Of a DNA stretch of 64,000 nt, positions 98-62,611 are shown one piece after another. Under the pieces are notes generated by a model. That model was given only the letters and a program-made list of their open reading frames with translations, had not been told where the DNA came from and ran no database searches. The stretch's first letter is position 1, and the number at the start of each line of letters is the position of its first letter. This DNA comes from an uncultured Lachnoclostridium sp. Its GTDB lineage: Bacteria; Bacillota; Clostridia; Lachnospirales; Lachnospiraceae. The stretch is taken from positions 1-64,000 of the forward strand of contig CAMKRZ010000013.1 of the NCBI GenBank assembly GCA_946415315.1, given 5' to 3'. The translations under genes were made by a program, and so were the position numbers.

Positions 98-3000
98 CTA
101 TTGAGCGGATGCATCCTCCTGCCGTCTGCGAACAGCGAGCACCACGGTCGCTGCGCCGAGCAGGAATACCCACCAGATCAGCAATCCGGAATCACCGGTC
201 TTCGGAGCATCGGGCTTTGTCTCCGGCTCCGTCGTATCCTTAGGATCTTCCGTCTGCTTATCCTGCTTCTCGGGATCGTCCTTATGCTCAGGCTCATCAG
301 GATTAACCGGATTCACAGGTTCATCCTTCTGCTCAGGTTCGTCAGGATTCACAGGATTTACTGGGTTCACCGGTTCCACCGAATCATCTTTCTGCTCAGG
401 AACATCGGGATTTACCGGATCGTCGGGATTCACCGGATCATCAGGGTTCACCGGATCATCAGGGTTCACCGGATCGTCAGGATTCACCGGATCGTCGGGA
501 TTTACCGGATCGTCGGGATTCACCGGATCATCAGGGTTCACCGGGTCGTCAGGATTTACCGGATCATCGGGGTTCACCGGATCGTCGGGGTTCACCGGAT
601 CATCAGGATTCACCGGATCGTCGGGATTTACCGGGTCGTCGTTCTTTGTGATTACAAACTCATCAATTGCTGTTGCGGATTCATGGTTTTCGGTCTCAGG
701 AATCGTCACTCGTACAACATACTCGCCCTCCTCCGTCGGAGGATTCGTTGTGTACTCGGTTCCATCCTTGACCTTATACTCAATAATGATGTCATTGCTG
801 TCCACGTCATCCGGCACACCGGAGATCTCAGGCGTCGGCAATGTCTTACCGCTCTCGCCGTCCTCCTGAACAACCGTGATGATGACTGAATCCTTCGGAG
901 TAATCTTGATCGTGATGATCTCTGTCTTTCCGGTATGGTTCTCACTGTCGTCGATCGTGACCTTGATCTTGACTTCTCCGGTCTCGGAACCGGGCACCAG
1001 ATTATTGTCCTCATCAATCTGAGCATCGCCTGCCGTCGTACCGTCATCAATGATCTCGAACGTTACATCGCCGGATGCATCCTCTACCAATTCCTCGAGG
1101 TTAATCTTGTGATCATCATCCGGAAGCGTATTGACAGTCACTTCCTTCTCCTCGGTAGTGATAACCGCCGGATCCTCGCTCTTTTCAATCGTGAGTTCAC
1201 CGTTCTCGAAGATTACATTGTAGTTGCCCTGCTCCTCTTCACCCACAGGGATGATATCATAGGTGCCGGCATCCTCGCCTTCTTCTCTGATCAGCTCGAA
1301 TACAATTTCATTTTCCGTGTCGCCGTCTACAAGACCGGTGATCGTCGCGGTAAATTCAGGATCCTCGTCACCGTAGTTCTTCTGCTTGTCCTCCGCGGTA
1401 ACAACCACGGTCACAGGCGTCACAGTAAGATCGCCGTTCTCATACGTGATATAATATTTCGCCGTGACATCCTCACCGTCTGCATTCACGATCTTCACGT
1501 CGGACGGTACATTCTCACAAGATCCTACATCCGTCTGGCTTCCCGTGATCGCAATGGTCTCGATACGGTCGCCATCCTCAAGGCCTTCCGATGAGTAACC
1601 CTCATTCGTCAGGGGCGTTCCGTCATATACCTTCTTATCGCTGTCCGCCGTGATCGTGACAACGATCTTGTCCGTTACTGTCAGTTTTCCGTCCACATAC
1701 GTAATGTCATAACAATTCGTGACATCCTGGTCGAAAATGTTGACAATCACCGCATCCGAAGGCTTGTTATCGCTTTCGCCGACCTCCGTCTGACTGCCGG
1801 TCACGGTTACGGATTTGATCGTATCGCCATCTCCAAGTGTTGTATTCGTGTAACTGTCCTTGGTAAGCGGTGTTTCATCATACGTCTTCGCAGCACTGTC
1901 TGCTGTGATAGTGATGGCCTTCTTCGTTACTTCCAGTTCGCCGTTTACGTATTCAATATCGTAGGACGAAGTAACATCCTCACCCTCAGCGTTCACGATC
2001 TTTGCTTCGGACGGTACGTTGTCACTTGTTCCTACAACCGTACGGCTTCCGATCACAGTTACACTCTTAATCGAGTCGCCCTCTGCAAGATCATCAATCG
2101 CGCAGGAATCATTTGTAAGCGGTGTTCCGTCGTATTCCTTCGTATTGCTGTCCGCCGTGATGGTGATGGACTTCTTCGTTACTTCCAGTTCGCCGTTTGC
2201 GTATTCAATATTGTAGGACGAAGTAACATCCTCACCCTCAGCGTTCACGATCTTTGCTTCGAACGGTACGTTGTCACTGGTACCTGCAACGGTCTGGCTT
2301 CCGGTCACAATCACGCTGTCAATCTTGTCACCTGTTGCCAACTCAGTGTTCGTGTAGCTGTCCTTCATAAGAGGCGTTCCGTCGTACACCTTCGTGTCGC
2401 TGTCCGCCGTGATGGTGACGGACTTAGGCGTTACTGTAAGTTCGCCGTTCTTGTACTCAATATCGTAGGACGAGGTGACATCCTTACCATCCGCATTCAC
2501 GATCTTCGCGTCGGACGGTACGTTGTTGCTTGCGCCTACAACCGTCTGGCTGCCGGCCACAGTTGCACTCTCAATCGAGTCGCCCTCTGCCAAAGCAGTG
2601 TTCGTGTAGCTGTTCTTCGTAAGCGGCGTTCCGTCGTACACCTTCTCGTCGCTGTCCGCCGTGATGGTGATGTCCTTCTTCGTTACTTCCAGTTCACCGT
2701 TCGCATATGTGATTTCATAGGACGTGGTGACATCATCACCATTCGCATTCACGATCTTCGCTGCGGACGGTTCGTTGTCACTCGTACCTGCGACGGTTTG
2801 GATGCCGGTCACGGTCACACTCTCAATCTTATCGCCCTCTGCCAAAGCAGTGTTCGTGTAACTGTTCTTCGTGAGTGCCGTTCCGTCATACACCTTCTCG
2901 TCGCTGTCCGCCGAAATGGTGATGGCCTTCTTCGTTACTTCCAGTTCACCGTTTGCATATGTGATTTCGTAGGATGTAGTGACATCCTCACCATCCGCAT

Positions 3001-6000: not shown

Positions 6001-9000
6001 TCTCCGTGACAACCTGGTCGGAACCATTTACGATCACAGCCCCGGAAGGCTTGTTGTCGCTTTCGCCGACCGCTGTCTGGCTGCCGGTCACGGTTACGGA
6101 TTGGAAAATGTCGCCATCCGCCAGTGCCGTGCTCGTGTAACTGTCTTTGGTAAGCGGTGTTTCATCGAAAGTCTTCGATGCACTGTCCGCAGTAATCGTA
6201 ACAGGTTTCTTTGTTACCTTCAGCTCGCCGTTCTCATAATTAATGGTATAGCAGTCGGTAACATCCACACCGGCATCATTGACAATCTTTGCATCGGACG
6301 GTACATTACCGCTTGTCCCTGCGAATGTCTGACTTCCGGTTACAGTAATGCTTTCGATGCTGTCATTTCCCGCGAGATCTTTACTTTCTGCCTCTTCAGC
6401 AGTCAATTCAGTACCATCATATACTTTCTCTGCAGATTTGGCTGTGATCGTAATCTCTTTCGGGGTTACCGTCAGCGTGCCGTTTACATACGTGATGGCA
6501 TAGTTTTCCGTAACATCTTCGTCATGTTGTTCGTTGCGAATAACTGCCTTGGAAGGAACGTTTTCAGATCCCCCTACCAAAGTCTGCGCTCCCGAAACTA
6601 CGATATCGGTAATGCTGTCTCCAGCGCCAAGTTCATCGTTGGTATAGTCAGAATTTGACAACGGTGTGCCGTCGTATACCTTTTCATCGCTTGCCGCAGT
6701 GATGGTAATCACCCTCCGCGTTACTTTCAGCGTACCGTTCTCATATGTGATGTCGTAGCAATCGGTGACGTCCGTACCGTCGGAATTCACGATCAATGCG
6801 TCAGACGGTACATTGTTCGTCGAACCGACTGTGGTTCTTCTTCCGGTTATTGTGATATTCTCAATGGAGTCGCCCTCCACCAGATCATTTTCACCACAGG
6901 AACAACTGTCGCATGTCAATGCAGTACCGTCATATTGCTTCTCGTCACTTCCTGCTGTGATGGTGATCGGCTTGGGAGTTACTTCCAGTTCACCGTTCTT
7001 GTACGTGATAGTATAGCAATCGGTAACTTCCACACCATCCGCATTTACTATCTTTGCATCGGACGGTACGTTGTCACTTGAACCGACTAACGTCTGGCTG
7101 CCGGTCACGGTTGCACTCTCGATGGTGTCACCTGTTGCAAGATCGCCACTCGAGCAGGTATCCTTCGTGAGCACCGTTCCGTCGTACACCTTCTCTGCGC
7201 TGTCCGCTGTGATGGTGATGGGCTTAGGCGTTACTTCCAGTGCACCGTTCTTATACTTAATATCGTAAGACGAGGTGACATCCTCACCATCCGCATTTAC
7301 GATCTTTGCTTCGGACGGTACGTTGTCACTTTCTCCTGCAATCGTCTGGCTTCCGTTCACGGTGACGCTTTCAATCGAATCATTTTCCGCCAGTGACGTG
7401 TTGGTGTAGCTGTCCTTCGTAAGCGGCGTTCCGTCATACACTTTCGTGTCACTGCCTGCCGTGATGGTGATTGACTTCGGTGTAACAGTCAGTTCACCCG
7501 CCTCATATTCAATAGAATACTTGTAGGTGACATCCTCACCCTTGGCATTTACGATCTTTGCATTGGAAGGAGTATTTTCACTCGTTCCGGCCTTAGTCTG
7601 ACTTCCGTCAAAATCAACTGATGCGATGGTGTCGCCTTCGTCCAGAGAACCCGTAAGTGTGTACGTATCGCTTGTCAGTTCTGTGCCGTCGTATTCTTTG
7701 TCTGCGTTTTCCGCCGTAATTATGATCTCGTTCTGTGCGAGAATCTTCAGTTCACCGTTTACATACTCAATATCGTAGCAGAACGTAACATCCTTGTCTC
7801 CGTTAAAGATCTTTGCATCGTGAGGAACATTTTCTTCTGTTCCGGGGTCGGTTATTGCCCCACTCACGGAGACGCTCTCAATTGTATCTCCGTCAACTAA
7901 ATCGGTATGCGTGTAACTGTCCTTTGTCAGAGGCTCGCCGTTATAGTACCGTTCTGCACTGTCGGCAGTGATTGTCAGCGGCTTCTTCGTTACCTTCAGC
8001 TCGCCGTTTGCATACGTGATATCGTAGCAGGCCGTAACGTCTTCACCGGCTGCATTTCTGATCATTGCATCCGACGGCGTACTTGGGCTCGTACCGACTA
8101 CTGTCCGGCTTCCGGAAACCTCAACATTCTCGATGGAGTCACCTTCCGCCAGCTCATTTCCATCGTATGTGTAATCACTCTGCGTCAGTTCCGTACCGTC
8201 ATATACCTTCTCAGCATCCTCGGCTGTGATCGTAATCGGCCTCAGCTTAACGGTCAGATCACCCTCCTTATATTCAATAGAATACTTGTAGGTGACATCC
8301 TCATCGGCTTGATTAACAATCTTCGCATTGGAAGGAATATTATCGCTCGTACCGACCTTAGTCTGACTTCCATCGAAATCAACCGATACGATGGTATCGC
8401 CTTCGTCCAGTTCGCCATCATATGTATACGACTCGCTCGTCAGTTCCGTACCATCATATACTTTATCTGCATCTGTCGCAGTAATCGTGATCTCCTTCTG
8501 TGCAAGAACCTTCAGTTCACCATTTACATACGTTATATCGTAGCAGAACGTAACATCCTTGTCTCCGTTAATGATCTTTGCATCGCGAGGAACATTTTTT
8601 TCTGTTCCGGGGTCGGTTATTGCCCCGCTCACGGAGACGCTCTCAATTGTATCTCCGGCAGCAAGATCGGTATGCGTGTAACTGTTCTGTGTCAGCGGCT
8701 CGCCGTTATAGTACCGTTCTGCACTGTCGGCGGTGATCGTCAGCGGCTTCTGTGTTACCTCCAACGTGCCGGGCACGTATGTAATCTCGTAGCAATAGGT
8801 GACATCCCCAACGCCCGTTCTGTAAATCACCGCGTCATGCGGTACATTGTTGCTTGTGCCGACCACAGTCTGACTGCCGTCATATTGGGAAGATATGTAG
8901 AGGTCTCCGGCCGCCAATCCATTGCAAAAACTACTTGCTCTCGTCAGCGCAGTACCGTCATATACCTTCTCAGCACCATACGCCGTAACCGTCAGAGGTC

Positions 9001-12162: not shown

Positions 12163-12191
12163 GCATTTTTCGTACTTTTACGCGGAAAATG
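12163..12191. terminator. Facing pair of GAAAATG-type motifs after the response regulator
   Basis: CATTTTTCG (from 12163) faces CGGAAAATG (ending 12191) across a short A/T-rich loop, about 80 bases past the response-regulator stop. It can form an imperfect hairpin without a clean U-run. It is one of several intergenic inverted pairs built from the window-wide GGAAAATG motif. Confidence 0.4.
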
Positions 12192-15087: not shown

Positions 15088-16588
15088 ATTGCTTCAATGC
15101 CTTTCTGTCCAACTTCCCGTTGCTGTTGACCGGGAGCTCCGTAACAACGGAAATCTTCTTCGGAACCATGTATGCCGGTACCTTCTGTGCAAGCCTCTCC
15201 CGGATTGCCGCCTCATCCGGTCCGCCCGGCTCCACCGTGACAAACGCCCGGATCGTACTGACAGCCCCCTCCGCATTCCGGTTCGCTGTCACGGCGCAGT
15301 CCGAAACGCCGTCGACCGAGAGCAGATTCGACTCGATATCCGCGAGTTCGATCCGATATCCCATATACTTGACCTGGCTGTCCTTCCGGCCGCCGCAGTA
15401 CAGTTTTCCGCCCCGTATAGCACCGTAATCCCCGGTCCGGTAGCAGTTCACTCCGTTCTCCGTGTAGTGTCCGCCGCAGGCACCGCCGAGGTATCCGCCG
15501 AACACGCTCGCCCCGCGCAGCACGATCTCTCCGTCCTCGATCGCAATCTCCGTCGCCGCAGACGCAATCTCCCCGACCGGGAGTACCTCCTCCGACGCAA
15601 GCATTTCCGGCGAGATTGTCACCGCAGAAACTGCGGAGGTCGCCTCCGTCGGTCCGTACGCGTTGATAACCGCAAGCTTCGGAAAATGCCGGAACAGCCG
15701 CTCGACTGTCTTCTTCTCAAGCCGCTCCCCGCAGAAGTACACACAGTGAAACTCCGGAAAATACTCCTCCGTAAACTCATCGTTCAGAAGGCACATTTTC
15801 ATGCATGTGGGCGTCATGACCGCCACATTGATCTTCTCCGCTGCAAACAGTTCGAAAATGTGATCGTACTCCGTTCGCATGTCGGCTTCGTTGGCGATGA
15901 GCGTGTGGCCGTTTCCGAGCGCATAGTAAATGTCCGCGACACTCAGGTCAAACGCAAAACTCGCCTGGTTCAGAACATTGCAGTTCCGATAATCGCACAG
16001 TGGAGAAAGCTCCGCGATCCAGTTTGCGAAGTTTCCGAGGTTTGCGGCCGTGATCGGAACGCCCTTCGGCTCCCCCGTGCTGCCGGACGTAAAGATCATG
16101 TAGGCGATCCGGTCTTCGCCGGGTTCCGTGTCAATATCCACAGCACACTCCGTGCCGGGTTCCGCGTCGCGCTCCCCCGGGCACAACGCATCAACCGAAG
16201 TAACTCCCCCGACGTTCATCCGCTCCGGCAGACTTCGAAGCGTGCACACCATAGCGCCGTTCACCTCGACCGGCCGGTCCGTAAGCACAAGTTCCGCCCC
16301 GGTCATCTGCAAAATCCGCGCCACACGCCCGGCGGGCGTCTTTACATCCACCGGAACGTATGCTCTCCCTGCCAGCAGGCACGCGACCATCGCGATCACC
16401 GTCTCGCAGCGTTTGTCCTGAAACAGAACAACCGGCGACGTGCCCTGCCGCCGAAGGCATACCGCATAACGGCGCGCCTCATCCCACAGTGTCCCGTAGG
16501 TGATCGCGCGCGCGCCGCACTTGTATGCAATCCGGTCACGGTTGGCATTCGCCGCCGCTTCCATTCGTTTTATGATCGTATCAGTCAT
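15080..16588 (-). CDS. dltA: D-alanine:carrier ligase-like adenylating enzyme (DltA-like)
   Basis: 502 aa, typical for DltA. It belongs to the AMP-forming adenylation superfamily: P-loop-like FTSGSTGEPKG near residue 145, the core motif INAYGPTEATSAVS, the YRTGD motif, and the C-terminal catalytic lysine in NSNGKLDRKALK. It should activate D-alanine with ATP and load it on the downstream carrier. It is coupled by overlap both to vanW upstream (8 bases) and dltC downstream (8 bases). Ribosome site GGAGCAG lies inside the vanW end. Substrate specificity is inferred from the pairing with a DltC-like carrier. Confidence 0.88.
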   Translation of the reverse strand: MTDTIIKRMEAAANANRDRIAYKCGARAITYGTLWDEARRYAVCLRRQGTSPVVLFQDKRCETVIAMVACLLAGRAYVPVDVKTPAGRVARILQMTGAELVLTDRPVEVNGAMVCTLRSLPERMNVGGVTSVDALCPGERDAEPGTECAVDIDTEPGEDRIAYMIFTSGSTGEPKGVPITAANLGNFANWIAELSPLCDYRNCNVLNQASFAFDLSVADIYYALGNGHTLIANEADMRTEYDHIFELFAAEKINVAVMTPTCMKMCLLNDEFTEEYFPEFHCVYFCGERLEKKTVERLFRHFPKLAVINAYGPTEATSAVSAVTISPEMLASEEVLPVGEIASAATEIAIEDGEIVLRGASVFGGYLGGACGGHYTENGVNCYRTGDYGAIRGGKLYCGGRKDSQVKYMGYRIELADIESNLLSVDGVSDCAVTANRNAEGAVSTIRAFVTVEPGGPDEAAIRERLAQKVPAYMVPKKISVVTELPVNSNGKLDRKALKQYD

Positions 16589-17408
16589 TTTGAATCTGCT
16601 CCGCGGGAATCAGGCTGTAGTCGTACATGACCTCCGAGTGATTGTCGAGGATCAGTTCCTTCCGGATCGTCTCTCCGGTCTCGCGGTCGATCACCAGGCG
16701 GTACACCTTGGAGATTCGGAAGTATTTGTCGCCCTCACGCTTAAAATGATGGTCCTCCTCTACCAGCCGGTATCTCTCCGGGAACGATCTCTCGCTGCGA
16801 AGCTCGCCGCACAGTTCGCCGTTCTCGCACCACACAAGAAGCTGAACTGCCTGGTCGGTGGTGTTCGTAAAACGGTAGTCGAGCCGGTTGTAACAGATCG
16901 ACGTTCCGGTTCCGAAGGGCACGCGGCGCCGTTCATCGGGGAACAGCGCATCCGAGTGATGGTGCAGTTCCGTCACCGTCATCGGGCTGTTCAGCACAAG
17001 CCAGTGGATCATATTGCCCATCTGGCACAGTCCCCCGCCGACTCCCGACGACATGCCGTTGCGGCAGATCATCAGGCCTTCCTTGTAGCCTTTGCGCTTC
17101 GTCGGTCTTCCGCACGACTCCCAGTAGGAAAATGTCTCCCCCGGCTGAATGACGAGCCCGTTGATCTTCCGACACGCGAGCTCAATATTTGTGACTTTAT
17201 TTTCCTGTAACTTGATGTCCACCCCGTTCAATCGTCGGATCAGGATCGAGCTGTGACTTTTCACGATATTGTCAAGCGGCGTATCCGACCGCTTCTTCGC
17301 AACCCTGCAACCATCGAACAGGTTTTTCACCTTACGTTTTAAGATTTCCTTCTCTAACGAGATCCGATAGCACCTCGGACCGAGCGAGCAAAACAACCGC
17401 CTTGACAT
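16581..17408 (-). CDS. VanW family protein
   Basis: 275 aa. It has the VanW core (NGLVIQPGETFSYW, GRPTKRKGYKEGL, the glycine-rich GMSSGVGGGLCQM, and the HHHSDA and GTGTSICYNRLDYRF region). VanW was first seen in vanB glycopeptide-resistance clusters, and its biochemical role is still unsettled. No signal peptide is evident. It heads the operon with dltA and dltC, overlapping dltA by 8 bases, which suggests a shared role in cell-wall or teichoic-acid modification. The promoter region carries three 11-bp-spaced direct repeats, so it is probably controlled by a response regulator. The nearby LiaS/LiaR-like pair is one candidate, though such repeats are more typical of OmpR-type regulators. Confidence 0.9.
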   Translation of the reverse strand: MSRRLFCSLGPRCYRISLEKEILKRKVKNLFDGCRVAKKRSDTPLDNIVKSHSSILIRRLNGVDIKLQENKVTNIELACRKINGLVIQPGETFSYWESCGRPTKRKGYKEGLMICRNGMSSGVGGGLCQMGNMIHWLVLNSPMTVTELHHHSDALFPDERRRVPFGTGTSICYNRLDYRFTNTTDQAVQLLVWCENGELCGELRSERSFPERYRLVEEDHHFKREGDKYFRISKVYRLVIDRETGETIRKELILDNHSEVMYDYSLIPAEQIQND

Positions 17409-19003: not shown

Positions 19004-19041
19004 CGGTTTCTCCGCCGTTTTGTTCATTTTCCGTAACATGG

Positions 19042-23955: not shown

Positions 23956-24022
23956 GCGGCGGTTCCCGGGCCGCCTCCGCCTCTTATGCCACCATCGTAA
24001 AGCATTCCCCGGAAAATGAAAA

Positions 24023-26431: not shown

Positions 26432-26463
26432 GGAAAATGAGCTCTTCTCCCGCCTCATTTTCC
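26432..26463. repeat. Facing GGAAAATGAG/CTCATTTTCC pair between genes
   Basis: GGAAAATGAG starts at 26432, and its inverted copy CTCATTTTCC ends at 26463. The pair lies in the 164-base gap upstream of the 5'-nucleotidase gene, beyond the terminator of the preceding gene, so it may affect that promoter region. It is part of the iterated motif family. Confidence 0.6.
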
Positions 26464-33523: not shown

Positions 33524-33552
33524 GGAAACCTGTCCTCCTGTCGAAAACATTG

Positions 33553-36143: not shown

Positions 36144-36219
36144 ACCGTCCTTTGCTCCCCTTCCGGAAATGCGTTGTCACACGTCCCCGCGCCTGTGGAA
36201 AATGCCTGTCTTCGCCGTG

Positions 36220-38490: not shown

Positions 38491-38544
38491 ACACTCTCCT
38501 TCATTTTCCGCGCAGACCGTTCAATCGGCCGCGCTCTCCCACAC

Positions 38545-40393: not shown

Positions 40394-41233
40394 TCAGTCC
40401 GTAACGTTGATGACATCCCCCGAGTGGACATACGCAAGCTGATCTCCCATGATATTCTTCATCACGTCAAATGCGACCGTCCCGGTGCAATGACAGGTGT
40501 AAAACTTCGTCGGGTACGTCCTGAGCGTCTCAGCGATCGCTTCAATCTCCGCGATCTCATCCGCGCTGTACTCCGTCTTCTTCATCAGATGGAACCCGCT
40601 GACCACCAGATCCGGCGCACTTCCGTACCGGTCCGTATAGGCGTCGAGGATGCTGAGAATGCCGTTGTGCGCGCACCCGGACATGAGAACGGATTTACCG
40701 TTCTGCCGGACCACCAGAACATGCTCATGTCCGAACTCGTCCCGCCGGTAACAGTCCTCCCCTCGGACAAGCAGATTCCGGTTCGTGGAGGGAAGCTCAT
40801 GGCTTCGGTTTCGTATCACAAACAGCTCCAGCTCGTCGTCGATCACGGTGTCCCCGTTCAGGAATCTCACCTGCGGCAGACTCGCGATGCTCTTGTCGAT
40901 GCCGATGTATCGGAATCTCACCGGAGCATTTTCCCCGTCATCCGCATAGTAGTCGTCCGTCGCAGACGCCTGCATGTAGATTACCGCTTTATCATTCACC
41001 TCGGAAAATGGAATGATCCCGCCGGAATGATCGTAGTGCCCGTGGCTCAGGATAACCGTGTCCACCGCAGTCAGGTCGATGCCGAGAACTTTCGCGTTCC
41101 GCAGGGTCTCCTCCGAAGGGCCCAGGTCCAGAAGCAGCCTGTGCCGCTCAGTCTCCACGTAAAATGAAAGCCCGTGGGCATACGCGCAGCCGCACCGTCC
41201 CTCTGTATTTTCGATCAGATTGATTATGTTCAT
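40394..41233 (-). CDS. MBL-fold metallo-hydrolase (DHPF-synthase-like)
   Basis: 279 aa. It has the metallo-beta-lactamase core: LLLDLGPSEE, SHGHYDHSGG, MSGCAHNGILS and the C-terminal FYTCHCTG. It resembles the 7,8-dihydropterin-6-methyl-4-(beta-D-ribofuranosyl)-aminobenzene-phosphate synthase-like group, whose bacterial members have unproven roles. It follows the TrmH gene's upstream end by 17 bases, so the two share a transcript. AGGGGAG precedes ATG. Confidence 0.88.
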   Translation of the reverse strand: MNIINLIENTEGRCGCAYAHGLSFYVETERHRLLLDLGPSEETLRNAKVLGIDLTAVDTVILSHGHYDHSGGIIPFSEVNDKAVIYMQASATDDYYADDGENAPVRFRYIGIDKSIASLPQVRFLNGDTVIDDELELFVIRNRSHELPSTNRNLLVRGEDCYRRDEFGHEHVLVVRQNGKSVLMSGCAHNGILSILDAYTDRYGSAPDLVVSGFHLMKKTEYSADEIAEIEAIAETLRTYPTKFYTCHCTGTVAFDVMKNIMGDQLAYVHSGDVINVTD

Positions 41234-41923: not shown

Positions 41924-41965
41924 ATTCGATACCTCATTTTCCGTATTGTGATTCTTCCGCTTTCG

Positions 41966-44554: not shown

Positions 44555-46986
44555 GATTTGGTGAAGCGATCAAGGCAGGCAAGTACGCCCGGAAGGACGA
44601 AAAGGATCAAAAGGATCGCACTGGCCGCCCCGATGGAGAGCGTCTGACAGATCTGCTCCACCGTGGGCTCCCCGAAGCACTGGCCGAAGACCGCCGTCAC
44701 GATCACGATGATCAGACCGGACGTAAGGATCGTGTGAATGGCCCCTGCGTAAGCCTGTTTCAGTGCGACCGCGGTCTCGCCTGTTTTCCGCGCCTCGCGA
44801 TAGTAATTGCTGAACAGGATACCGTAGTCGATCATGGAGCCCATGAGGATACACTGCACGATCAGAAGCGCCAGGTAGTTGATGCTGTAGCCCTGGAAGC
44901 CGATGACCGTGATCGTGATGTAGACGCCGCACTGCACCAGAAGCACAAGGACAACGGGCACGATCAGTGTGCGGAACGTGATAAGCACGACAAGGAAAAT
45001 GGCGACCGCCGTGAGGATCGTGATCGTCAGCAGCTCCTTGTCAAACGTCTGACTCATCTCGTAGTTCATCGCCGAGGAACCGATCAGATGATACTCCCCG
45101 ATGTTGTCGCCGCAGCGCTCGTTGATCTTCTCGTAAAATGCATCCGTCTCCGGTCCCTCCGCCGGGATCGTCACCGTGAGGATCAGCCGCGAGTAATTCG
45201 GTCCCTTCAGCTGTTTGACACCGTCATTCAGATCAGCCGCCGAACGCTGAATGTCCGCGATCATCTCATCGTCCATGAAGATCCGGAATGTCGCGTCATG
45301 GATCAATTTGTCGTTTATGAAGTTCATCAGCTGTTCGATGGACATGGTTCTGCCGTTGTTCTCGGGGAGAACCGCGTCATGGTACAGATACATGAGCGAA
45401 ATGGTATTCTCGTCGAAGCCCTCCACTGTTTCAAACGCAGAGGCCATTTCGGCAACCGACATCGGCGTGATCATCATGGCAGGGTCAAGTTTGCTCATCA
45501 CCGCAAGGAACTCCTGCGGATCGATATCCTCGATGTACGGGGCAAATGCGGGATCCGTCATCACAACCTGCATGACGAACTGCAGAAACTCACTGATCGT
45601 GAGGGTTCCCGGCTCCCCGCCGTAATATTTGTGGTACAGAAGTTTATATGTATTCCCGGTCGGCGTAATGTACTGCCTGTCGCCGCCCATGCTGTCGGAG
45701 AGTTCGTCGATCGCATCCACCATCTCCTCCGCCGTATGCTGCTTCGCCAACGTGTTGGAATAATTAGCGGCGCTCTTGACGCCCTCCCAGGTTTCCATCT
45801 CGGCGGCAAGTTCCGTCATTTTCCCGTCATCCCGGTTATCGTACACCAGAACGACGGTCTCGTCCTTCGGGAACACCTCCGCCACGGCATCGTTGCTGAT
45901 CGTCGCGTAACTGATGACGGTTCGCTCCTTCAGGATGAACGCTCCGGCAAACAGCAGCACGAACAGCACCGCGAACACCAGGCGGTATTTGTCGCAGATC
46001 CTTGCCAGTCCCCCTGTCGGGATCTTCGGCACCGGTTTTTTCGTCTTCTCCAGAAGACCGGAGCACGACAACAGAAGTCCCGGAAGGATCAGGAATACAC
46101 AGAGGACGCTGAAAAGCACGCCCTTGGCAAGCACGATACCCAGATCCAGACCGATCTTGAATCTCATGAAGACGAGCGCCAGCAGACCCACGATCGTAGT
46201 CAGCGAACTGCCGGAGATGGAGGAAAATGCCCCCGTAACCGCCGCTTTCATCGCGACCTTGCGGTCCGACGTCTGCGCCAGCTCCTGCCGGTACCGGTTC
46301 GCCAGAATGATGGAGTAATCCATGGAAAGCACAAGCTGCAGCATGGCAGTCACGGAAAATGTGGTCTCCGAGATCGACCCCATCACAATGTTGGTCCCGA
46401 AGTTGATGACGACAGCCATTCCGATGGTGAACAGAAACAGAAACGGTTCGATCCAGGAATTGCACATGATGATCAGAATGACCGTGAGGATCAGGACGAC
46501 ACCGATGAGCACGAAGGTCGGAATGTTCGGGTGGTCGCCGCTGTCGTTCGTGAACTTCATCCCATTTTCCGAGTAGTCCGAAGCGAGCGTTTCCTCGATG
46601 GACTTCTCCTCATCGGAATCGTAGTCATACTCCGTGTGAAGAACATATTTGACGTAGTCATCCCGGTTGTACGCCTCGTCGTCCGGCTTGTAATCAACCT
46701 TTGTGACGTAACGGATGCCGGCAAGTTTCTCCTGCATGGCAAGCTTCTGCTCCCCGGTCAGCCCGCGGAACATCACGCGGATGGTATAGTCGTCCTCCGC
46801 CCCCGGGAACTCTTCCTCCATGATGTCCATTCCGATCTTCATGGAGGAATCATCGGCAAGGTACTTCGCCATGTCGGTGTTGATCCCGACCTTCGGGATC
46901 AGAACGGCGCACACGCCGGCAAATACCAGCACGGCGATCAATATCCACACTCTACGCTCAACAATAAACTCAGCAATTTTCTTCAT
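44551..46986 (-). CDS. RND/MMPL-family exporter
   Basis: 811 aa from the ATG at 46986 (AGAGGAG seven bases before). It has two halves, each with a lead helix, an extracellular domain and five transmembrane helices. Helices in the first half include PTFVLIGVVLILTVILIIMC and TTIVGLLALVFMRFKIGLDL; those of the second include LLTITILTAVAIFLVVLITF. It carries MMPL-type motifs (MDYSIILANRYRQEL and GSMIDYGILFSNYYREARK), whose Asp-Tyr pairs relay protons. In Gram-positives such transporters export lipids, drugs or siderophores. The substrate is unknown. The divergent TetR gene upstream is its likely regulator. Confidence 0.93.
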   Translation of the reverse strand: MKKIAEFIVERRVWILIAVLVFAGVCAVLIPKVGINTDMAKYLADDSSMKIGMDIMEEEFPGAEDDYTIRVMFRGLTGEQKLAMQEKLAGIRYVTKVDYKPDDEAYNRDDYVKYVLHTEYDYDSDEEKSIEETLASDYSENGMKFTNDSGDHPNIPTFVLIGVVLILTVILIIMCNSWIEPFLFLFTIGMAVVINFGTNIVMGSISETTFSVTAMLQLVLSMDYSIILANRYRQELAQTSDRKVAMKAAVTGAFSSISGSSLTTIVGLLALVFMRFKIGLDLGIVLAKGVLFSVLCVFLILPGLLLSCSGLLEKTKKPVPKIPTGGLARICDKYRLVFAVLFVLLFAGAFILKERTVISYATISNDAVAEVFPKDETVVLVYDNRDDGKMTELAAEMETWEGVKSAANYSNTLAKQHTAEEMVDAIDELSDSMGGDRQYITPTGNTYKLLYHKYYGGEPGTLTISEFLQFVMQVVMTDPAFAPYIEDIDPQEFLAVMSKLDPAMMITPMSVAEMASAFETVEGFDENTISLMYLYHDAVLPENNGRTMSIEQLMNFINDKLIHDATFRIFMDDEMIADIQRSAADLNDGVKQLKGPNYSRLILTVTIPAEGPETDAFYEKINERCGDNIGEYHLIGSSAMNYEMSQTFDKELLTITILTAVAIFLVVLITFRTLIVPVVLVLLVQCGVYITITVIGFQGYSINYLALLIVQCILMGSMIDYGILFSNYYREARKTGETAVALKQAYAGAIHTILTSGLIIVIVTAVFGQCFGEPTVEQICQTLSIGAASAILLILFVLPGVLACLDRFTKS

Positions 46987-48586: not shown

Positions 48587-49774
48587 CTAATGATCCTGCC
48601 GCTCGAACAGTCCGGGCATGTACCAGATCTTGGTCCCGCGCGCGAACACGATCAGCATCAGCACGTAGAACGCCGCGAGGTAAAAGGGGAACACCCACAT
48701 GCCGACCGCCTGCCCCAGCAAGCCACAGCACACCTGTCCGGCAAGGAAGGCAAAACTTGAGACCGCCATCTGCGTTCCGATGATCGCGGACGACCGCTTC
48801 TCGCCGAAATTTTCCGGGGCAAGGAAATTGAAATTCGGAAACATCGGTCCGTTGCCGATCCCGATCAGCATCAGCGCCGCAACCGTCACGTAGCTGTTCG
48901 GGATAAGTACAAGCAATGCGAGGGCAACTCCGAGCACGAAAAGTCCGATCTTGACGATCTTCCAGCTGTGTAGTTTCTGCGCGACCACGCCGGACAGGAA
49001 TCTTCCGAGTGTCATCCCGAAATAGTAGACCGTTACGGCCGCCGCGGCGAACTCGTCGCTCGCGTGTCGGTGCTCGACCAGAAACGTACTGCTCCATCCG
49101 CCTGCCGATGCCTCGATCGCCACCGAACAGACAAACAGAAGCCACATGACTTTGACGCCGCGGATCGACGCCGCCTGCCGCAACGTCAGCGTCTCAAACT
49201 CTTCCTCCGCCACGGTCTCCTTCCCGTGAACCTTCTTCCAGACGGGAAGCGTCGCGATCAGAAGGATCGCCAGTCCGAGCTGGATGAACGCCGCGATCCG
49301 GTATCCGGTCCTCCAGTTCATTCCGTTGCGGAACACGAGCGTCATGATGAACGGGCTCACGGTGACGCCGACACCGTAGAAGCAGTGCAGGAAACTCATC
49401 TGTGAGGCGCTGTAGTGCAGCGCAACGTAGTTGTTGAGTCCCGTGTCGATCGAGCCCGCGCCGAGTCCGAGCGGAACCGCGAACAGGCACAGGAAAATGA
49501 AACTCCCCGACGCGCTGTAACCAAACAACGCCAGCGCGGTCAGAAGCGTACAGCCCGCCGTGAGTCTGTTGGTCCCGAATCGTTTGATCAGCCTTGAACT
49601 CATCAGGCTCGACAGCGTCGTCCCGATAAAACAGATCGCTGTGACAAGTCCGCCGAGTGAGAACGGCAGATCAAACTCCGTGTAGATTGACGGCCAGGAA
49701 GCCCCGAACAGAGAATCGGGAAGGCCCAATCCGATAAATGCCGCATAGATCACGGCTATCAACAATGTCGCCAT
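48587..49774 (-). CDS. MFS transporter, 12 transmembrane helices
   Basis: 395 aa with about twelve hydrophobic helices. Signature-like segments are GLGLPDSLFGASWPSIY near the N-terminus and SSRLIKRFGTNRL in the first cytoplasmic loop. The body resembles sugar or drug proton-symporters of the FucP/FPN-like kind, but the substrate cannot be read. Two ribosome-site candidates (GGAGGAG and GGAGGGG) precede the ATG. It is upstream of the alpha/beta hydrolase gene, 73 bases apart. Confidence 0.9.
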   Translation of the reverse strand: MATLLIAVIYAAFIGLGLPDSLFGASWPSIYTEFDLPFSLGGLVTAICFIGTTLSSLMSSRLIKRFGTNRLTAGCTLLTALALFGYSASGSFIFLCLFAVPLGLGAGSIDTGLNNYVALHYSASQMSFLHCFYGVGVTVSPFIMTLVFRNGMNWRTGYRIAAFIQLGLAILLIATLPVWKKVHGKETVAEEEFETLTLRQAASIRGVKVMWLLFVCSVAIEASAGGWSSTFLVEHRHASDEFAAAAVTVYYFGMTLGRFLSGVVAQKLHSWKIVKIGLFVLGVALALLVLIPNSYVTVAALMLIGIGNGPMFPNFNFLAPENFGEKRSSAIIGTQMAVSSFAFLAGQVCCGLLGQAVGMWVFPFYLAAFYVLMLIVFARGTKIWYMPGLFERQDH

Positions 49775-49838
49775 AGCCCCTCCGACTCCTCCGCTGTTCT
49801 CCGCGACATTTTCCGCCGCGTGTGATCACTCCTGCAGA

Positions 49839-50718: not shown

Positions 50719-51468
50719 TCATACCGTTCCTATGTACGCCACTGAACCATTGGCAACCGTTACGACCCCGTTCACGGCGTATCGCTCAAACGTATCCGTA
50801 AGTGTTTTCATATACTCCTCATACCGATCATCTCCGGCCTTGAGGGAATAAGAACCCGAGAGACTTCTCGCAAGAAACGTGTCACAATCCTGCTGCAGCG
50901 GATTGTCAAACGAGACAAACTCGTATTCCCCGCGAAAGAATTCCGTGATCCTCGGATCATCCTTCTTCAGTCCCCCGTTGAAGCCCTTAAAAGTCGGGCA
51001 GAACTGCCTGTAGATCCGGTACAGATCCCGATTCAGCGGGTCCGACTCATCGCGGATATTCCAGATCAGAAACACCTTGCCGCCTCGTAAAATGCGTGCG
51101 CACTCCCTGCGAAAGGCTTCCACATCAAACCAGTGAAATGCCTGCGCTGTCGTAATAAAGTCCACGGAACCGGCGGCAAGAGTAGTGTTCGCGGCATCCC
51201 CCGCTACGGAGTGGAAACCTGTAAACCGACGCAGCTCATTTTCCGCCGCATGGCGCATATCGTCGTTGGGCTCCACACCGTAAACGATGTTCCCGCGCTC
51301 AAGCAGCTGCGCGGCAAACTTGCCGGTACCGGAACCGATGTCCGCGATGACCGACTCCTGCTTAACGCCATATCGATCGTACAGACAATCGATCAACTCG
51401 CGTGCATAGCCCGGTCTTCCGACCGTATAATTTTCCGCATGTCCGTCAAACAGTTTCGTAGCGTCCAT
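50719..51468 (-). CDS. Class I SAM-dependent methyltransferase
   Basis: 249 aa. SAM motif I is VIADIGSGTGKFAAQLL, followed by VYGVEPNDDM, and ITTAQAFHWFDVEAFRRECA with the post-II acidic/aromatic residues typical of ubiquinone-biosynthesis-like methyltransferases (UbiE/COQ5 type). The target is probably a small molecule, not DNA. The start is preceded by GGGAGG. Confidence 0.9.
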   Translation of the reverse strand: MDATKLFDGHAENYTVGRPGYARELIDCLYDRYGVKQESVIADIGSGTGKFAAQLLERGNIVYGVEPNDDMRHAAENELRRFTGFHSVAGDAANTTLAAGSVDFITTAQAFHWFDVEAFRRECARILRGGKVFLIWNIRDESDPLNRDLYRIYRQFCPTFKGFNGGLKKDDPRITEFFRGEYEFVSFDNPLQQDCDTFLARSLSGSYSLKAGDDRYEEYMKTLTDTFERYAVNGVVTVANGSVAYIGTV

Positions 51469-51536: not shown

Positions 51537-52736
51537 TTATTTCAAAGCTTTCTTCCAGTCTTTGTCCTTCATCATCGGAACACCGAGATACGCGCTGAAC
51601 CGGCTGAACGCATCTCCGATCGCTGCGATCATCTCGTCCGTCACGGTGACATCCTTCTCCCACCACCAGTGTTTGATCGCAAGCGGGTTCTTCCCGTTGT
51701 TCTTCTCCGGCTCAAACCTTGCGATAAAACGGTTTCCGTACAATACGGGCAGCACATAGTAGCCGTACTGCCGTTTCGCTGCCGGCGTGTACACCTCCCA
51801 GGAGTACTTGAAGCCGAAAATCTCCTCCGTAATGCCGCGGTCCCAGATGAAATTGTCAAGCGGCGCGATGAACTGTGCCGTGGTGCTCTCCGCGGATTTG
51901 CCGAGGTATGCTTCGTCCTCCGCGCGGATGTAGAAGGGCTCCTTCGTGCCTTCTACCCGCACCTCGGTCAGCTCGCCGTCCGCGACAAGCTCGCGGATGA
52001 TCTCCTCGCGCGGGTGACGGTTGTAAATGTAGTGCCACAGCCACGCGCCGGTGTTTCTGTTCCACACCATGCCGATGCTGCCGATCCTGCGCTTGATGTA
52101 CCACCGCAGGAATTCGTGTTCGTCGGAAAATGGGTCCTCCCCGTTCAGGATTTCCGCCTTGTACAGCCGCTCGCTCAAGCCATATACCTTCAGTGTCTTT
52201 AACTTGGAGTGAATGCCCAGTTTTCCGCTGTGATACAGATAGTCGAGCGCCGCGCTCGAGAGCTTGCTGTGGCCCCAGCTGCCCTTCTCCGCCCGGCCGC
52301 CGATGTCGATCCTGTTGGCCGGCAGCGGCCCGTTCTCACGGACGCGCGCAAGCGTCTCGTCCAGGATCGTGAGTGCCTCCGCCGAGCCCCGTTGCTCCAG
52401 AACGCCGGCCAGCTCTTCGGTCGCTCTCCTGCGGATGCGCGCCATGCTCGGATAGTCCTCCGTCAGGATGATCGACATCACCTTGTCAAAGCCGTCGATC
52501 AGAAATCGCTCCTTGTACAACAGGTCGTAAAGCATCTCCGGGCGGTAGCCGCGGACACGCGATTGCAGCACCAGGTCCGGATTTCTTCCCACGACGTTGA
52601 GCGGATCATACTGGATACAACGCACCCTCTCCATGAAGCGCTTCGCACCCTCGTAACCTTCAAACTGCCCGAAATCATTTAACCCCTGATAATTCACAAG
52701 GAAATTGCGGGCAGTCTCATTGGAAATCGTGATCAT
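51537..52736 (-). CDS. YcaQ/AlkX-like winged-helix DNA glycosylase
   Basis: 399 aa from the ATG at 52736. It matches the winged-helix DNA-binding family that unhooks interstrand crosslinks in Escherichia coli: VRCIQYDPLNVVGRNPDLVL holds the Q-x-D catalytic pair, and TAQFIAPLDNFIWDRGI with YYVLPVLYGNRFIARFE are family markers. Expected role is base-excision repair of alkylated DNA. An upstream in-frame extension to 52895 is Trp/Arg-rich and antisense to real coding DNA of the HAD gene, so I excluded it. Confidence 0.88.
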   Translation of the reverse strand: MITISNETARNFLVNYQGLNDFGQFEGYEGAKRFMERVRCIQYDPLNVVGRNPDLVLQSRVRGYRPEMLYDLLYKERFLIDGFDKVMSIILTEDYPSMARIRRRATEELAGVLEQRGSAEALTILDETLARVRENGPLPANRIDIGGRAEKGSWGHSKLSSAALDYLYHSGKLGIHSKLKTLKVYGLSERLYKAEILNGEDPFSDEHEFLRWYIKRRIGSIGMVWNRNTGAWLWHYIYNRHPREEIIRELVADGELTEVRVEGTKEPFYIRAEDEAYLGKSAESTTAQFIAPLDNFIWDRGITEEIFGFKYSWEVYTPAAKRQYGYYVLPVLYGNRFIARFEPEKNNGKNPLAIKHWWWEKDVTVTDEMIAAIGDAFSRFSAYLGVPMMKDKDWKKALK

Positions 52737-52770
52737 TTTCCATCTCTCCCAAAGTATTGACTGTGCCGGT

Positions 52771-55294: not shown

Positions 55295-56104
55295 CTAAAT
55301 GATGTTGATCCCGTACTCTTTCATCTTGAGCACTTCCTTAGCCGGGATCCGAACGGTATCGGTATAGTCCTTCGTCGGCGTATAATGGCTCGTCCGCGTG
55401 ACGAGGACCTCCTCCCCGTTTCTCACAATATCATACTCGATCTGTTCCGGATTATAGATTCTGTCCGGCACGAGCATACTAAGCAACCCTCCCGTGATAT
55501 CCGAAAGCTCCGTGTTGTATTCCTTGAACCGCTCGGCATGGCACAGCACCCCGTCGCGGTAGTCGTAATACTCGGCATCCACTTTTATCCCCACGGAAAA
55601 TGGTCCGTTGCTGCAGCTGAAGGTTTCCACGCTGACGAGATTGCCTGCCTCGTCGTACTCGCTCCACTCCGTGCACAGCCACCGGTATGTACAGGTTCCG
55701 TCCGGCTTGTGAAACACGAGGTACTCGATCTGCAGATTCTCGGAGACGAAGAAGATGACGTACGTGTCCCGTTTGCTCCCGATCAGCTCCTCCGCCAGAA
55801 AATTCGTCGAATTGAATTCGAACTCGGTGTGGTGACGGTTTCCCGCGGTATCATACACGACTGTGATGTACGTGCCTTCCTTCGCGCTCTTCCACAGCTT
55901 CGCGTGCTCCTTCTGCGCGAGAAGCTTTCTGCTCTCAAGATGGGGCAGGATTCTCCTGTCATAGTTGTTGGTCAGAACATCACTCGCCTTCGCATACCGC
56001 GTGTCGCCTCGCACGATCATGATATCCGGCTTGTACGTGTCAACGTACTCCATCGTGATCCGGCGGTACTTCTCCAGGATCGCTTCCTTGTCAAACTCTC
56101 TCAT
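55295..56104 (-). CDS. Conserved-looking hypothetical protein
   Basis: 269 aa, soluble and acidic, with no signal peptide and no membrane helix. Segments such as YVDTYKPDIMIVRGDTRY and EYDIVRNGEEVLVTRTSHYT give no family I can name. AGGAGAGGGG precedes ATG. The window's codon style and the strong ribosome site support a real gene. It is followed by the 147-aa gene 114 bases on, with no terminator seen. Confidence 0.75.
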   Translation of the reverse strand: MREFDKEAILEKYRRITMEYVDTYKPDIMIVRGDTRYAKASDVLTNNYDRRILPHLESRKLLAQKEHAKLWKSAKEGTYITVVYDTAGNRHHTEFEFNSTNFLAEELIGSKRDTYVIFFVSENLQIEYLVFHKPDGTCTYRWLCTEWSEYDEAGNLVSVETFSCSNGPFSVGIKVDAEYYDYRDGVLCHAERFKEYNTELSDITGGLLSMLVPDRIYNPEQIEYDIVRNGEEVLVTRTSHYTPTKDYTDTVRIPAKEVLKMKEYGINII

Positions 56105-57474: not shown

Positions 57475-57854
57475 AGGATCATTTTCCTTCCGAACATCAT
57501 ATATTCCGCGACATAGCACGGCATGATTCCGATCGCATAGCACATCAGGTCGATCGTCGAATACCCGGTTCCCAATATGATCCGCAGCAGCCGGTTCGTG
57601 ATCCCGAAATGATCGCAGAAACCCCACAGCTGCAAAAACTCCACTGCAAAGGCAAACGCCAGGATTGCCGTCGGGAGCAACCACCATTTTCGGGGCCACT
57701 CGGGAAAGGCTGTGCGAAACAGCGTGTACAGCAAAATCACGATGAGCACGTCCCCGAAATAGTTCCGTACCCAGCCGTGCGCATACATTCCGATCAGCAC
57801 TTCCACGCCGAACAAAACGGCGGAAAGCACGCCGAATACAATTCTTTTTCTCAT
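57471..57854 (-). CDS. DUF2809 family membrane protein
   Basis: 127 aa from the ATG at 57854 (GGGGAG seven bases before). Four helices; family hallmarks are VEVLIGMYAHGWVRNYFGD, VILLYTLFRTAF, FAVEFLQLWGF and ILGTGYSTIDLMCYAIG. DUF2809 proteins have no known activity. It overlaps the next gene by 4 bases. Confidence 0.85.
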   Translation of the reverse strand: MRKRIVFGVLSAVLFGVEVLIGMYAHGWVRNYFGDVLIVILLYTLFRTAFPEWPRKWWLLPTAILAFAFAVEFLQLWGFCDHFGITNRLLRIILGTGYSTIDLMCYAIGIMPCYVAEYMMFGRKMIL

Positions 57855-57926: not shown

Positions 57927-59183
57927 TCACTCCCGTACCTGTCCGCAGATAAAGCGAATCAGCCGCGAGGCCTCCTCACGCCGGAACGGGTACACCCGCT
58001 CAATGTACACATAGTAGATCAGCATCGACCAGAACACTTCGTATCCGCCGTAATCAAACTCTTCTTCCGTCGGAAAATACAGCAGACATCCGTTCGTGTA
58101 GCCGTTCACATAGAAGTATTCGTCCTGCAGCAGCCGCGATGCTTCCAACGCAAAACCGACCATGAATTCGTACGGCCCGCCGCACATGCAGACATCCCCG
58201 ATCGTAAAATACTGCATCTCCACGTCTTCACTCTGCACGTGAACTTCCTCTTCGTTCAGTCGCTTCACTTTGGCAAGCCAGCCCGTGTCGATGATGCCGC
58301 ACAGTTCCTGCGCTTCCTTCGCGATCTGGCAAGCTCTCTCAACCGTAGGCACATCGGACTCGAGCGTGATGTGCCGTGAGTACATGCTCACTCTGCAATC
58401 GCGCCGAACTGCTGCAGTATCAAACACCTTCTCAACCGCATCGGTCACCTCACAGGCCATGTCCGTGAGCGCGGTTTCGCTTCTTACGTACCGCTCTCCC
58501 GTCGCATCGACCGGAGTTTCCTTCGAGCAAAAATACTTCGGCGCCGTGTTGCCGGCCGATCCCTGGATCACCATGACGCGACACCCGAACTTCGTGCCTG
58601 CGACCTCGCGGAGATCCCCGAACCAGTCCGGGGAGATCTTGTTGTTGTCGCGCTTCAGAACATTGCCGTGCGCAGTGACACGGAGGATTAGAAGCTTCGG
58701 CTGTCCGCTTTGCGCTTCACACACCTTGATCACTCCGACGCGGTCATCGGTTGCCTCCGAGACCGGACGTCGGTTCACACCGATCGAGGCCTGCGCGTTG
58801 GTCCATCCGACAGCAACCTCCGTCATATCGGCCGCTGCCTGCCGCGCTGCCTCCAATATCCTGCGGCAAACTTCGCGGTAGTACTCCGGCTCCCGGTCTG
58901 CATCCGGCGCCGCATGCGTGTGCGAGAAGCACAGCATGACGCGCGCGGAAGGAATACCCAGCTCGTCGCCGAGCATTTTCCGAAGCTTGTCCGAGAGTTC
59001 TCTCGTAAAGCCGATGCTGTCGATTGTGACAAGGCAGCATCGCTCCTCCGCTTCCCACACGGTAACCTGCGAAAGAAGCGGTTTGAGCACCCCGGACGAG
59101 CGGTTGTCCTCGCGGTAAAAACCGACCAGTTCCATCGGCCGATCCGGCGTGATGTCCGCCTGACTGTAACCCAATCGCAACAT
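57927..59183 (-). CDS. Neutral/alkaline non-lysosomal ceramidase N-terminal domain protein
   Basis: 418 aa from the ATG at 59183 (GGAGATAACC before). It opens LGYSQADITPDRP and has CFSHTHAAPDAD (zinc-binding histidines), GVNRRP, VIQGSAGNTAP, and a late YTNGCLLYFPTEEEFDYGGY, all in the order of the neutral ceramidase fold. True ceramidases are secreted and about 600-700 aa; this one has no signal peptide and lacks the C-terminal Ig-like domain. Members of this shorter type are amidohydrolase-like with unknown substrate. Confidence 0.9.
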   Translation of the reverse strand: MLRLGYSQADITPDRPMELVGFYREDNRSSGVLKPLLSQVTVWEAEERCCLVTIDSIGFTRELSDKLRKMLGDELGIPSARVMLCFSHTHAAPDADREPEYYREVCRRILEAARQAAADMTEVAVGWTNAQASIGVNRRPVSEATDDRVGVIKVCEAQSGQPKLLILRVTAHGNVLKRDNNKISPDWFGDLREVAGTKFGCRVMVIQGSAGNTAPKYFCSKETPVDATGERYVRSETALTDMACEVTDAVEKVFDTAAVRRDCRVSMYSRHITLESDVPTVERACQIAKEAQELCGIIDTGWLAKVKRLNEEEVHVQSEDVEMQYFTIGDVCMCGGPYEFMVGFALEASRLLQDEYFYVNGYTNGCLLYFPTEEEFDYGGYEVFWSMLIYYVYIERVYPFRREEASRLIRFICGQVRE

Positions 59184-59705: not shown

Positions 59706-59762
59706 CTGCTTCCCCTTGTTTCACCTGTTATCCCGGATATCTTCCCCCGGAAAATGACTGCC

Positions 59763-60137: not shown

Positions 60138-60171
60138 CGGGGAATCCTCCTTATGCACAAGTGCATTTTCC

Positions 60172-61395: not shown

Positions 61396-61398
61396 CTC

Positions 61399-61968: not shown

Positions 61969-62611
61969 ATGCGCTCTCCAGTTCCCTGATGACCGTCGAG
62001 ATCGCTTCGTAGTCTCTCGTCAGGATCCCGCCGTCTTTCCTGCTGATGGAAAAAACGATCACGGTTCGCGCCTGCTTGTCCGTGTCATAACGATCCCCCA
62101 GCAACTCCCGGTCAGCCTGCTTCACACTTTTCACATACTTCTCCAGCGTTTCCCGAAGTATTTCGTAAGTGTTCTTCTCATTTTTCTCCGTAAAATCACG
62201 TTCCACCAGCATCTTCTGATCATAGCCCAGCACGCGCAGATGGCGGGGCAGGTTTTCCCGCTCCTCCGCGCTTCCGATATCGTAGGTGCAGGTGATCGTC
62301 ACGATCTGAACTCTGGTTCCGACAACTTCATCCTTCAGATCCCGTAACTGTTGTTTATACACTTCGATGTCGGCAAGCTTCTCATCCGCCTCGGCAACCT
62401 TCTCGTCTGCCGCCGCAAGTTTCTCCTCCGCATCCGCGAGGATCTCCTCCGCCTCCGACATTTTATTTTTCGCGTTATCCGCCTCCGCCGCACTCTTCAG
62501 CGCATACCCGATCATGACCACGAACAGGAAAATGAAGATGACATCCATGAACGATGTCAGCTCAAACTGCGGGCTCGGTGAGGATGCGGTTGCGGGATTT
62601 CTTCTCTTCAT
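61952..62611 (-). CDS. ExbD/MotB-like protein with coiled-coil stalk
   Basis: 219 aa. The single helix (FELTSFMDVIFIFLFVVMIG) carries D23 at the position of the ExbD/TolR proton-binding aspartate. It is followed by a long coiled coil (about residues 43-95, repeated AEEKLAAADEKVAEADEKLA) and an extracytoplasmic domain of about 120 residues with a strand-rich end (ARTVIVFSISRKDGG). The coiled stalk is longer than in classical ExbD and is like MotB or GldM-type stators. It lies 50 bases after the ExbB-like gene. GAGGAAGG precedes ATG. Confidence 0.82.
   Translation of the reverse strand: MKRRNPATASSPSPQFELTSFMDVIFIFLFVVMIGYALKSAAEADNAKNKMSEAEEILADAEEKLAAADEKVAEADEKLADIEVYKQQLRDLKDEVVGTRVQIVTITCTYDIGSAEERENLPRHLRVLGYDQKMLVERDFTEKNEKNTYEILRETLEKYVKSVKQADRELLGDRYDTDKQARTVIVFSISRKDGGILTRDYEAISTVIRELESAYDDIY

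Follow-up and report, generated by a model that had tools for sequence, protein, structure and literature searches.

The DNA analysed here is a 64,000-nucleotide stretch from an uncultured Lachnoclostridium sp. (the window; C13:1-64000), part of a genome of 2.93 Mb in 42 contigs that is 97.5% complete. By the calls of our own script the window holds 60 genes, 58 of them in the same direction, and a short word, GGAAAATG, recurs within and between these genes 49 times (plus strand 23, minus strand 26). A preliminary description had given these copies and some of their positions, together with 28 that take the form CGGAAAATG and 18 occurrences of GAAAAATG, and our recount agrees on all of them. 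Two of its figures required correction: the G+C content of the window is 54.7% and not about 56%, and the expected number of copies is 2.4 to 4.9 rather than one or two. In 100 dinucleotide shuffles of the window GGAAAATG appeared 2.42 times on average and never more than seven times, and against an order-3 Markov model it ranked first among all 8-mers (49 vs 4.9 expected, z 19.0). It fell outside the top 15 under an order-6 model, which already holds the 7-letter halves of the word. The reversed word, used as a control, occurs once in the window.

The excess extends through the genome. In a sample of 464 kb (the window and 20 stretches of 20 kb from the same genome, with 384 called genes covering 89%), GGAAAATG was first among all 8-mers under the order-3 model (292 vs 37); the top rank, which the preliminary description had proposed to check, is confirmed, and the count is not near expectation. 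Under an order-5 model it was third, with two words ahead of it, CGAAAAAT and CGGAAAAT, of which one is a near variant and the other overlaps it. The whole genome carries 890 copies on the plus and 873 on the minus strand (1,763 in total; 0.6 per kb, 601 per Mb), compared with 18 and 17 (35 in total) for the reversed word. The balanced orientation first remarked on in the window, though nearly all genes there point one way, is also found genome-wide. We conclude that GGAAAATG is strongly over-represented throughout the genome.

Within the window, called genes contain 35 of the 49 copies, with each of the six frame/strand classes represented; the other 14 are intergenic or lie across a called gene boundary. 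The copies of GGAAAATG are as follows:

1309..1316, minus strand, copy in gene
6103..6110, plus strand, copy in gene
7381..7388, minus strand, copy in gene
12184..12191, plus strand, intergenic copy
15681..15688, plus strand, copy in gene
17127..17134, plus strand, copy in gene
17534..17541, plus strand, copy in gene
18479..18486, plus strand, copy in gene
19025..19032, minus strand, copy across called gene boundary
19659..19666, plus strand, copy in gene
20462..20469, plus strand, copy in gene
24011..24018, plus strand, intergenic copy
24895..24902, minus strand, copy across called gene boundary
26432..26439, plus strand, intergenic copy, inverted pair with 26456
26456..26463, minus strand, intergenic copy, inverted pair with 26432
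27336..27343, minus strand, intergenic copy
28169..28176, minus strand, copy in gene
28723..28730, minus strand, copy in gene
29088..29095, minus strand, copy in gene
29892..29899, plus strand, copy in gene
30297..30304, minus strand, copy in gene
30687..30694, minus strand, copy in gene
33191..33198, minus strand, copy in gene
35121..35128, minus strand, copy in gene
36197..36204, plus strand, intergenic copy
37750..37757, plus strand, copy in gene
38502..38509, minus strand, intergenic copy
38546..38553, minus strand, copy in gene
38753..38760, plus strand, copy in gene
38877..38884, minus strand, copy in gene
40927..40934, minus strand, copy in gene
41003..41010, plus strand, copy in gene
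41935..41942, minus strand, intergenic copy
44994..45001, plus strand, copy in gene
45817..45824, minus strand, copy in gene
46222..46229, plus strand, copy in gene
46354..46361, plus strand, copy in gene
46563..46570, minus strand, copy in gene
49492..49499, plus strand, copy in gene
49807..49814, minus strand, intergenic copy
51237..51244, minus strand, copy in gene
52125..52132, plus strand, copy in gene
52734..52741, minus strand, copy across called gene boundary
55595..55602, plus strand, copy in gene
57480..57487, minus strand, copy in gene
58974..58981, minus strand, copy in gene
59749..59756, plus strand, intergenic copy
60164..60171, minus strand, intergenic copy
62527..62534, plus strand, copy in gene

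Three copies fall in the 11 kb of a minus-strand open frame of 3,680 amino acids (window 98-11140). Internal repeats of this frame may be the source of repeated 10-mers of the window such as CTGGAAGTAA (13 copies).

As the preliminary description had held, copies occur between genes and in every reading frame, and protein sequence does not explain them. Across the 464 kb, GGAAAATG was in excess in each of the six coding frame/strand classes, and 225 copies lay within genes, where 20 synonymous-codon shuffles gave 23.3 on average and at most 30. The density was 1.14 per kb in intergenic DNA and 0.54 per kb in genes (raw values, uncorrected for base composition); convergent, divergent and tandem gaps had 1.41, 0.97 and 1.23 copies per kb (3, 6 and 48 copies). 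When replichores were assigned by GC skew, 158 copies were on the leading and 134 on the lagging strand, a polarity that is not significant (p 0.18).

The other members of the genus (21 genomes) contain 221 to 1,684 copies of GGAAAATG each. Across the order (196 genomes including the window's own, 102 genera) the highest density outside the genus was about 190 per Mb, from rounded genome sizes, compared with 601 in the window's genome. Among the sampled genomes only those of one genus, which probably belongs to the Lachnospiraceae, show the excess. Sister genera contain 302-552 copies vs 87-235 of the reversed word; a family-wide signal was rejected, as three sister genera were at or below the Markov expectation (3 vs 5.1, 6 vs 7.1 and 14 vs 16.6, in samples of 44, 100 and 100 kb). 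Contigs labelled Lachnospiraceae bacterium RGIG7903 and RGIG8155, which come from the reticulum and rumen of water buffalo, encode a relative of one window protein (80-82% identical); they carry 17 copies of the word within 21.5 kb and 12 within 18.3 kb.

Typing of samples of 20 to 534 kb from 18 genomes separated two dialects. The A-type is GGAAAATG itself, at 5.8 to 10.7 times the order-3 expectation in seven genomes. The M-type, GG[A/C]AAATG with the next base mostly C or T, was found in G007, G016, G008, G018, G001 and G004, and G012 resembles it in the 20 kb sampled. The 33 kb of G011 gave no clear type, G015 was near expectation, and G006 and G017 showed no excess (19 copies vs 20.4 expected in 238 kb); the top k-mers of G017 and G082 resemble repeat arrays. 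A second form, GGCAAATG, numbers 438 to 622 in G004, G007, G008, G012, G016 and G018, 416 to 437 in G001, G010 and G011, 334 in the window's genome, 215 to 220 in G005, G009 and G014, 106 in G006 and 84 in G017. When four pilus proteins of 15 genomes were placed in a midpoint-rooted tree, three clades corresponded to the A-type, the M-type and the motif-poor species, with the M-type G007 placed inside the A clade beside G002. The dialects thus appear mostly to follow clades, with one species, G007, that seems to have switched; this tree may differ from the species tree because it was built from pilus genes. Stretches L082-L086 of G001 show an excess of AAAATGTGA, a longer word that is perhaps a third dialect (16 vs 0.7, order 3).

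Both dialects share a mostly rigid AAAT core, which has exceptions. The 56 intergenic sites give the consensus TTCGGAAAATG, with A, C or T as the next base. In a profile pooled from the seven A-type genomes (1.18 Mb), GGAAAATG reached 11.1 times the order-2 expectation. Variants at positions 1, 2, 3 and 8 were still enriched (1.4 to 6.1 times), among them GTAAAATG (6.1), GGAAAATA (4.9) and GAAAAATG (4.6), and those at positions 4-7 stood at 0.48 to 1.22, with GGAAGATG (0.48) and GGAAAGTG (0.57) depleted and GGACAATG (1.77) as the exception. The core was looser in the six M-type genomes, in which GGAATATG (1.47), GGAAAAGG (1.51) and GGCAAAGG (2.80) were enriched, the last two perhaps through ribosome-binding sites. 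Tolerant flanks around a mostly rigid core may be read as the profile of a bound sequence.

Copies of the word are also kept between species, a point that the preliminary description had proposed to check. We aligned the window's genome by blastn with stretches of 15 relatives (pieces of at least 200 bp and at least 70% identity); 12 relatives yielded 90 comparisons, copies facing a gap being dropped uncounted. GGAAAATG was intact in 46 of the 90, compared with 16.2 +/- 3.5 (maximum 30 in 10,000 draws) for neighbouring 8-mers matched for codon phase, although the comparisons are not independent because a single copy may face several relatives. A further seven had one mismatch. The seven high-count relatives accounted for 42 intact of 71 (14.2 expected), and the remaining relatives for 4 of 19 (2.0 expected).

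A type IV pilus operon of the window's genome (L047 and L124, G000:C5) encodes PilB-like, PilT and PilC proteins, two pilins, PilD and PilM, as well as a PilO-like protein below cut-off, three more prepilin-type proteins and a 699-residue protein without family match. The order from pilB to the gene for a GspH-like pilin recurs in 14 genomes. A structure model of this minor pilin has a mean pLDDT (predicted local distance difference test) of 81.4. The pilD match is missing from the operon of G011, the operon of G007 ends at a contig end, and G003, G010 and G013 yielded only fragments. The PilB protein (L047:6757-8457) carries an N-terminal MshE-type cyclic di-GMP-binding domain, above cut-off, which suggests that a second messenger may control the pilus.

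The com genes raised in the preliminary description are also present. ComEC and DprA exceed their NCBIfam cut-offs, and ComEA exceeds that of a helix-hairpin-helix repeat model and is below that of the full comEA model. ComEC was matched in 20 of the 22 genomes of the genus, and ComEA with ComEC in all 12 genomes examined, the matches in G001 and G004 being cut by the stretch end. On one strand of L048:8780-15030 the genes for ComEA and ComEC enclose, in direct succession, those for a response regulator, a histidine kinase and a Germane-domain protein. ComEA and ComEC are 28-60% identical to those of relatives, and the regulator, which was found in 9 of 11 relatives, is 64-94% identical. In two M-type genomes a gene is split: ComEC of G016 (C57, L168) lies in two frames with internal stops and PilM of G007 (C26, L116) in two frames, and these are presumably broken genes or assembly errors. 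No secretin match was obtained at E <= 0.001 in the window's genome at its 97.5% completeness; control matches were found in 6 of 14 genomes. The failure to detect a secretin fits a monoderm cell, and to our knowledge the bearers of recognised uptake sequences are diderm.

On balance, we favour the view that GGAAAATG is a DNA uptake sequence like the DUS of Neisseria or the uptake signal sequence (USS) of Haemophilus, and regard this as somewhat probable. The over-representation, symmetry, dialects, restriction to one genus among the samples, conservation at orthologous sites and uptake genes are observations; from them we infer competence, sequence-biased uptake and a surface receptor that would read the motif, and with these each step that would lead from the genome signature to biased uptake. 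The type IV pilus of the genus would capture free DNA, and ComEA and ComEC would bring it inside. A candidate surface receptor, a minor pilin or ComEA, would prefer fragments bearing the motif, and motif-bearing alleles would recombine in, replacing homologous alleles that lack it. Since such alleles would spread by recombination, the motif would accumulate in both orientations wherever protein sequence permits. If the preference of the receptor drifted, a new dialect would accumulate, and if it were lost, the motif would decay. A molecular drive of this kind has been argued for DUS and USS (PMC1939737). Uptake explains the symmetry, intergenic density, conservation, dialects and loss better than do Chi, KOPS, HIP1 or mutation bias.

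Several results weigh against uptake. The reversed word is a lenient control, because G006 and G017, without a Markov excess, still exceed it (221 vs 82 and 257 vs 57; 2.7 and 4.5 times). The same two genomes retain the pilus operon, ComEA and ComEC, with the operon in the same gene order as in the others when we searched for a receptor, so the motif does not track the presence of the machinery. PilM-type proteins were matched in 124 of the 196 genomes of the order, 98 above cut-off, with a motif excess in one genus; the profile is not a clean pilus marker because it matches also in genomes such as Lactococcus, and PilM presence was rejected as a predictor of the motif across the order. A profile of the DUS receptor ComP gave 17.9 bits for one pilin, against a cut-off of 27.3. 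Uptake sequences already described, or those of the Pasteurellaceae, are reported to favour one orientation in genes and to lie preferentially towards gene ends (PMC2346458); in the 464 kb we counted 120 sense and 105 antisense copies, and a gene-end bias, which we looked for, was not seen. One spacing result speaks for uptake: gaps of 50-500 bp between copies were rarer than under random placement in the window's genome (53 vs 70.8 +/- 6.2, p 0.003). The bin was, however, picked after the gaps had been inspected, and the deficit was weaker among relatives, with 66 vs 78.3 in six of the A-type (p 0.034) and a non-significant 61 vs 69.6 in six of the M-type (p 0.10). None of three control words had such a deficit, one of them reversing in the window's genome (18 vs 10.3). 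Gaps below 50 bp numbered 12, compared with 8.9 +/- 2.9 at random, so that short-range inverted pairs are not clearly enriched; a role of the motif in terminators was rejected on this ground. Finally, nine copies lie in the 30 kb around a tyrosine integrase, an analysis of depletion in mobile DNA that has no power because this integrase was the only one found.

Neisseria uses a type IV pilus with ComEA/ComEC machinery, and the USS of H. influenzae has a density of about 0.8 per kb. The DUS of Neisseriaceae is present in thousands of copies and in dialects that share a core and are congruent with the core-genome tree; two dialects may occur in one genome, and some members have no obvious repeat (PMC3630211). 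GGAAAATG resembles it in its many copies of a short word, its clade-structured dialects with a shared core, its members without excess and the accompanying pilus and ComEA/ComEC genes. It differs in having an unrelated sequence (core AAAT, not CTG), a Firmicute host without detectable secretin, no ComP homologue above cut-off and no clear enrichment of short-range inverted pairs, and in being known from sequence alone. To the USS of Pasteurellaceae it is comparable in density and in its occurrence in coding and non-coding DNA, and the weak short-gap deficit recalls the even spacing mentioned for USS (PMC1939737); the word is a different one, and the orientation and gene-end biases are lacking (PMC2346458; for further work on these USS see PMC7811141 and PMC12616744). 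Veillonella parvula is also a Firmicute, with natural competence and a search for uptake sequences by its authors; a sequence of at least 10 bp present at least 100 times was not found there, words of up to 9 bp were left open and, in contrast to the present case, none was defined in the available part of that study (PMC5397411).

Among the alternatives, the best placed, though unlikely, is a motif like the highly iterated palindrome HIP1 of cyanobacteria, unrelated to uptake, which an orphan DNA methyltransferase or a repair bias would maintain from within the cell. Like HIP1, GGAAAATG is a short word repeated genome-wide (PMC4390886), in high number and in all frames. The window itself (28216-29697) encodes a stand-alone adenine-methyltransferase-like protein that exceeds the Pfam Eco57I and N6_Mtase cut-offs but falls below every NCBIfam cut-off, and drifting specificity of a methyltransferase could also yield dialects. 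HIP1, however, is the palindrome GCGATCGC with internal methylation sites (PMC4390886), whereas GGAAAATG is directional and the named relatives of its host are Lachnospiraceae. The preliminary description had left the choice between an uptake and a HIP-type signature: the first is supported by symmetry, frames, intergenic density, conservation, dialects and genes, and the second less well, as the word is not a palindrome.

Chi motifs are lineage-specific words, short, over-represented and without palindromic symmetry; the leading strand usually has more of them, and Chi and KOPS show marked strand or replichore bias. That GGAAAATG is a Chi-like octamer regulating an AddAB/RecBCD-type helicase-nuclease in double-strand-break repair is doubtful: the general traits fit and conservation at orthologous sites would fit, but the leading strand is not significantly favoured (158 vs 134, p 0.18), and the loss of the excess in two species together with a change of dialect within a genus would, we think, be unusual.

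The view that codon choice, amino-acid content or context-dependent mutation gave rise to GGAAAATG as a by-product has little to commend it. A mutation bias would affect all frames, and the one-mismatch neighbours GTAAAATG, GGAAAATA and GAAAAATG are enriched too; however, synonymous-codon shuffles yield 23 copies where 225 are observed, two congeneric species stand at 19 vs 20.4 expected in 238 kb, GGAAGATG and GGAAAGTG are depleted (0.48 and 0.57) and sites are conserved between species. There is also only a slim chance that GGAAAATG is some other genome-wide protein-binding site, of a nucleoid organiser or of a replication or transcription element. Its profile is of a binding type, with a mostly rigid core, but the densities in convergent, divergent and tandem gaps differ little (on 3, 6 and 48 copies), both gene strands are used, and some 1,763 copies would seem many for a regulator. 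A polar chromosome-segregation motif (KOPS, the FtsK-orienting polar sequences, or SRS, the SpoIIIE recognition sequences) can be set aside almost entirely: contig C1 looks polarised among the matches listed, with plus copies only beyond about 61 kb, but this is misleading because its sequence carries both orientations (7/6 in L006, 7/8 in L007, 7/7 in L008), and neither the genome totals (890/873) nor the replichores (158/134) are polar.

Elsewhere in the window, positions 31223-33556 encode a protein of 777 amino acids with the odd combination of an L,D-transpeptidase (YkuD) domain at residues 121-272 and an M20 peptidase at 368-773.

DNA uptake by Gram-positive bacteria is generally taken as unselective. 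In the literature consulted, which mostly excludes subscription papers and was seen in part, uptake sequences were found only for Neisseriaceae and Pasteurellaceae and none for a monoderm lineage; the preliminary description knew of no described case in Clostridia, and this stands within that scope, and with GGAAAATG as a text term the matches listed were unrelated. We give even chances to a broader proposal, that this would be the first DNA-uptake-sequence system in a probably monoderm lineage of Clostridia, one with selective transformation in cells without an outer membrane, at least two dialects arisen within one genus, a candidate receptor on the type IV pilus or in ComEA, and rumen relatives that use a DNA tag to keep gene exchange within their kind. 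If uptake is the correct reading, it would represent a third, independent origin of uptake sequences, in a probably monoderm lineage, and sequence selection would be separable from the outer membrane. The dialects and the relatives without excess would then form, within a single genus, a natural experiment on dialect switching. It would also mean that natural transformation serves gene exchange in these little-studied bacteria, and their genetic study would become easier.

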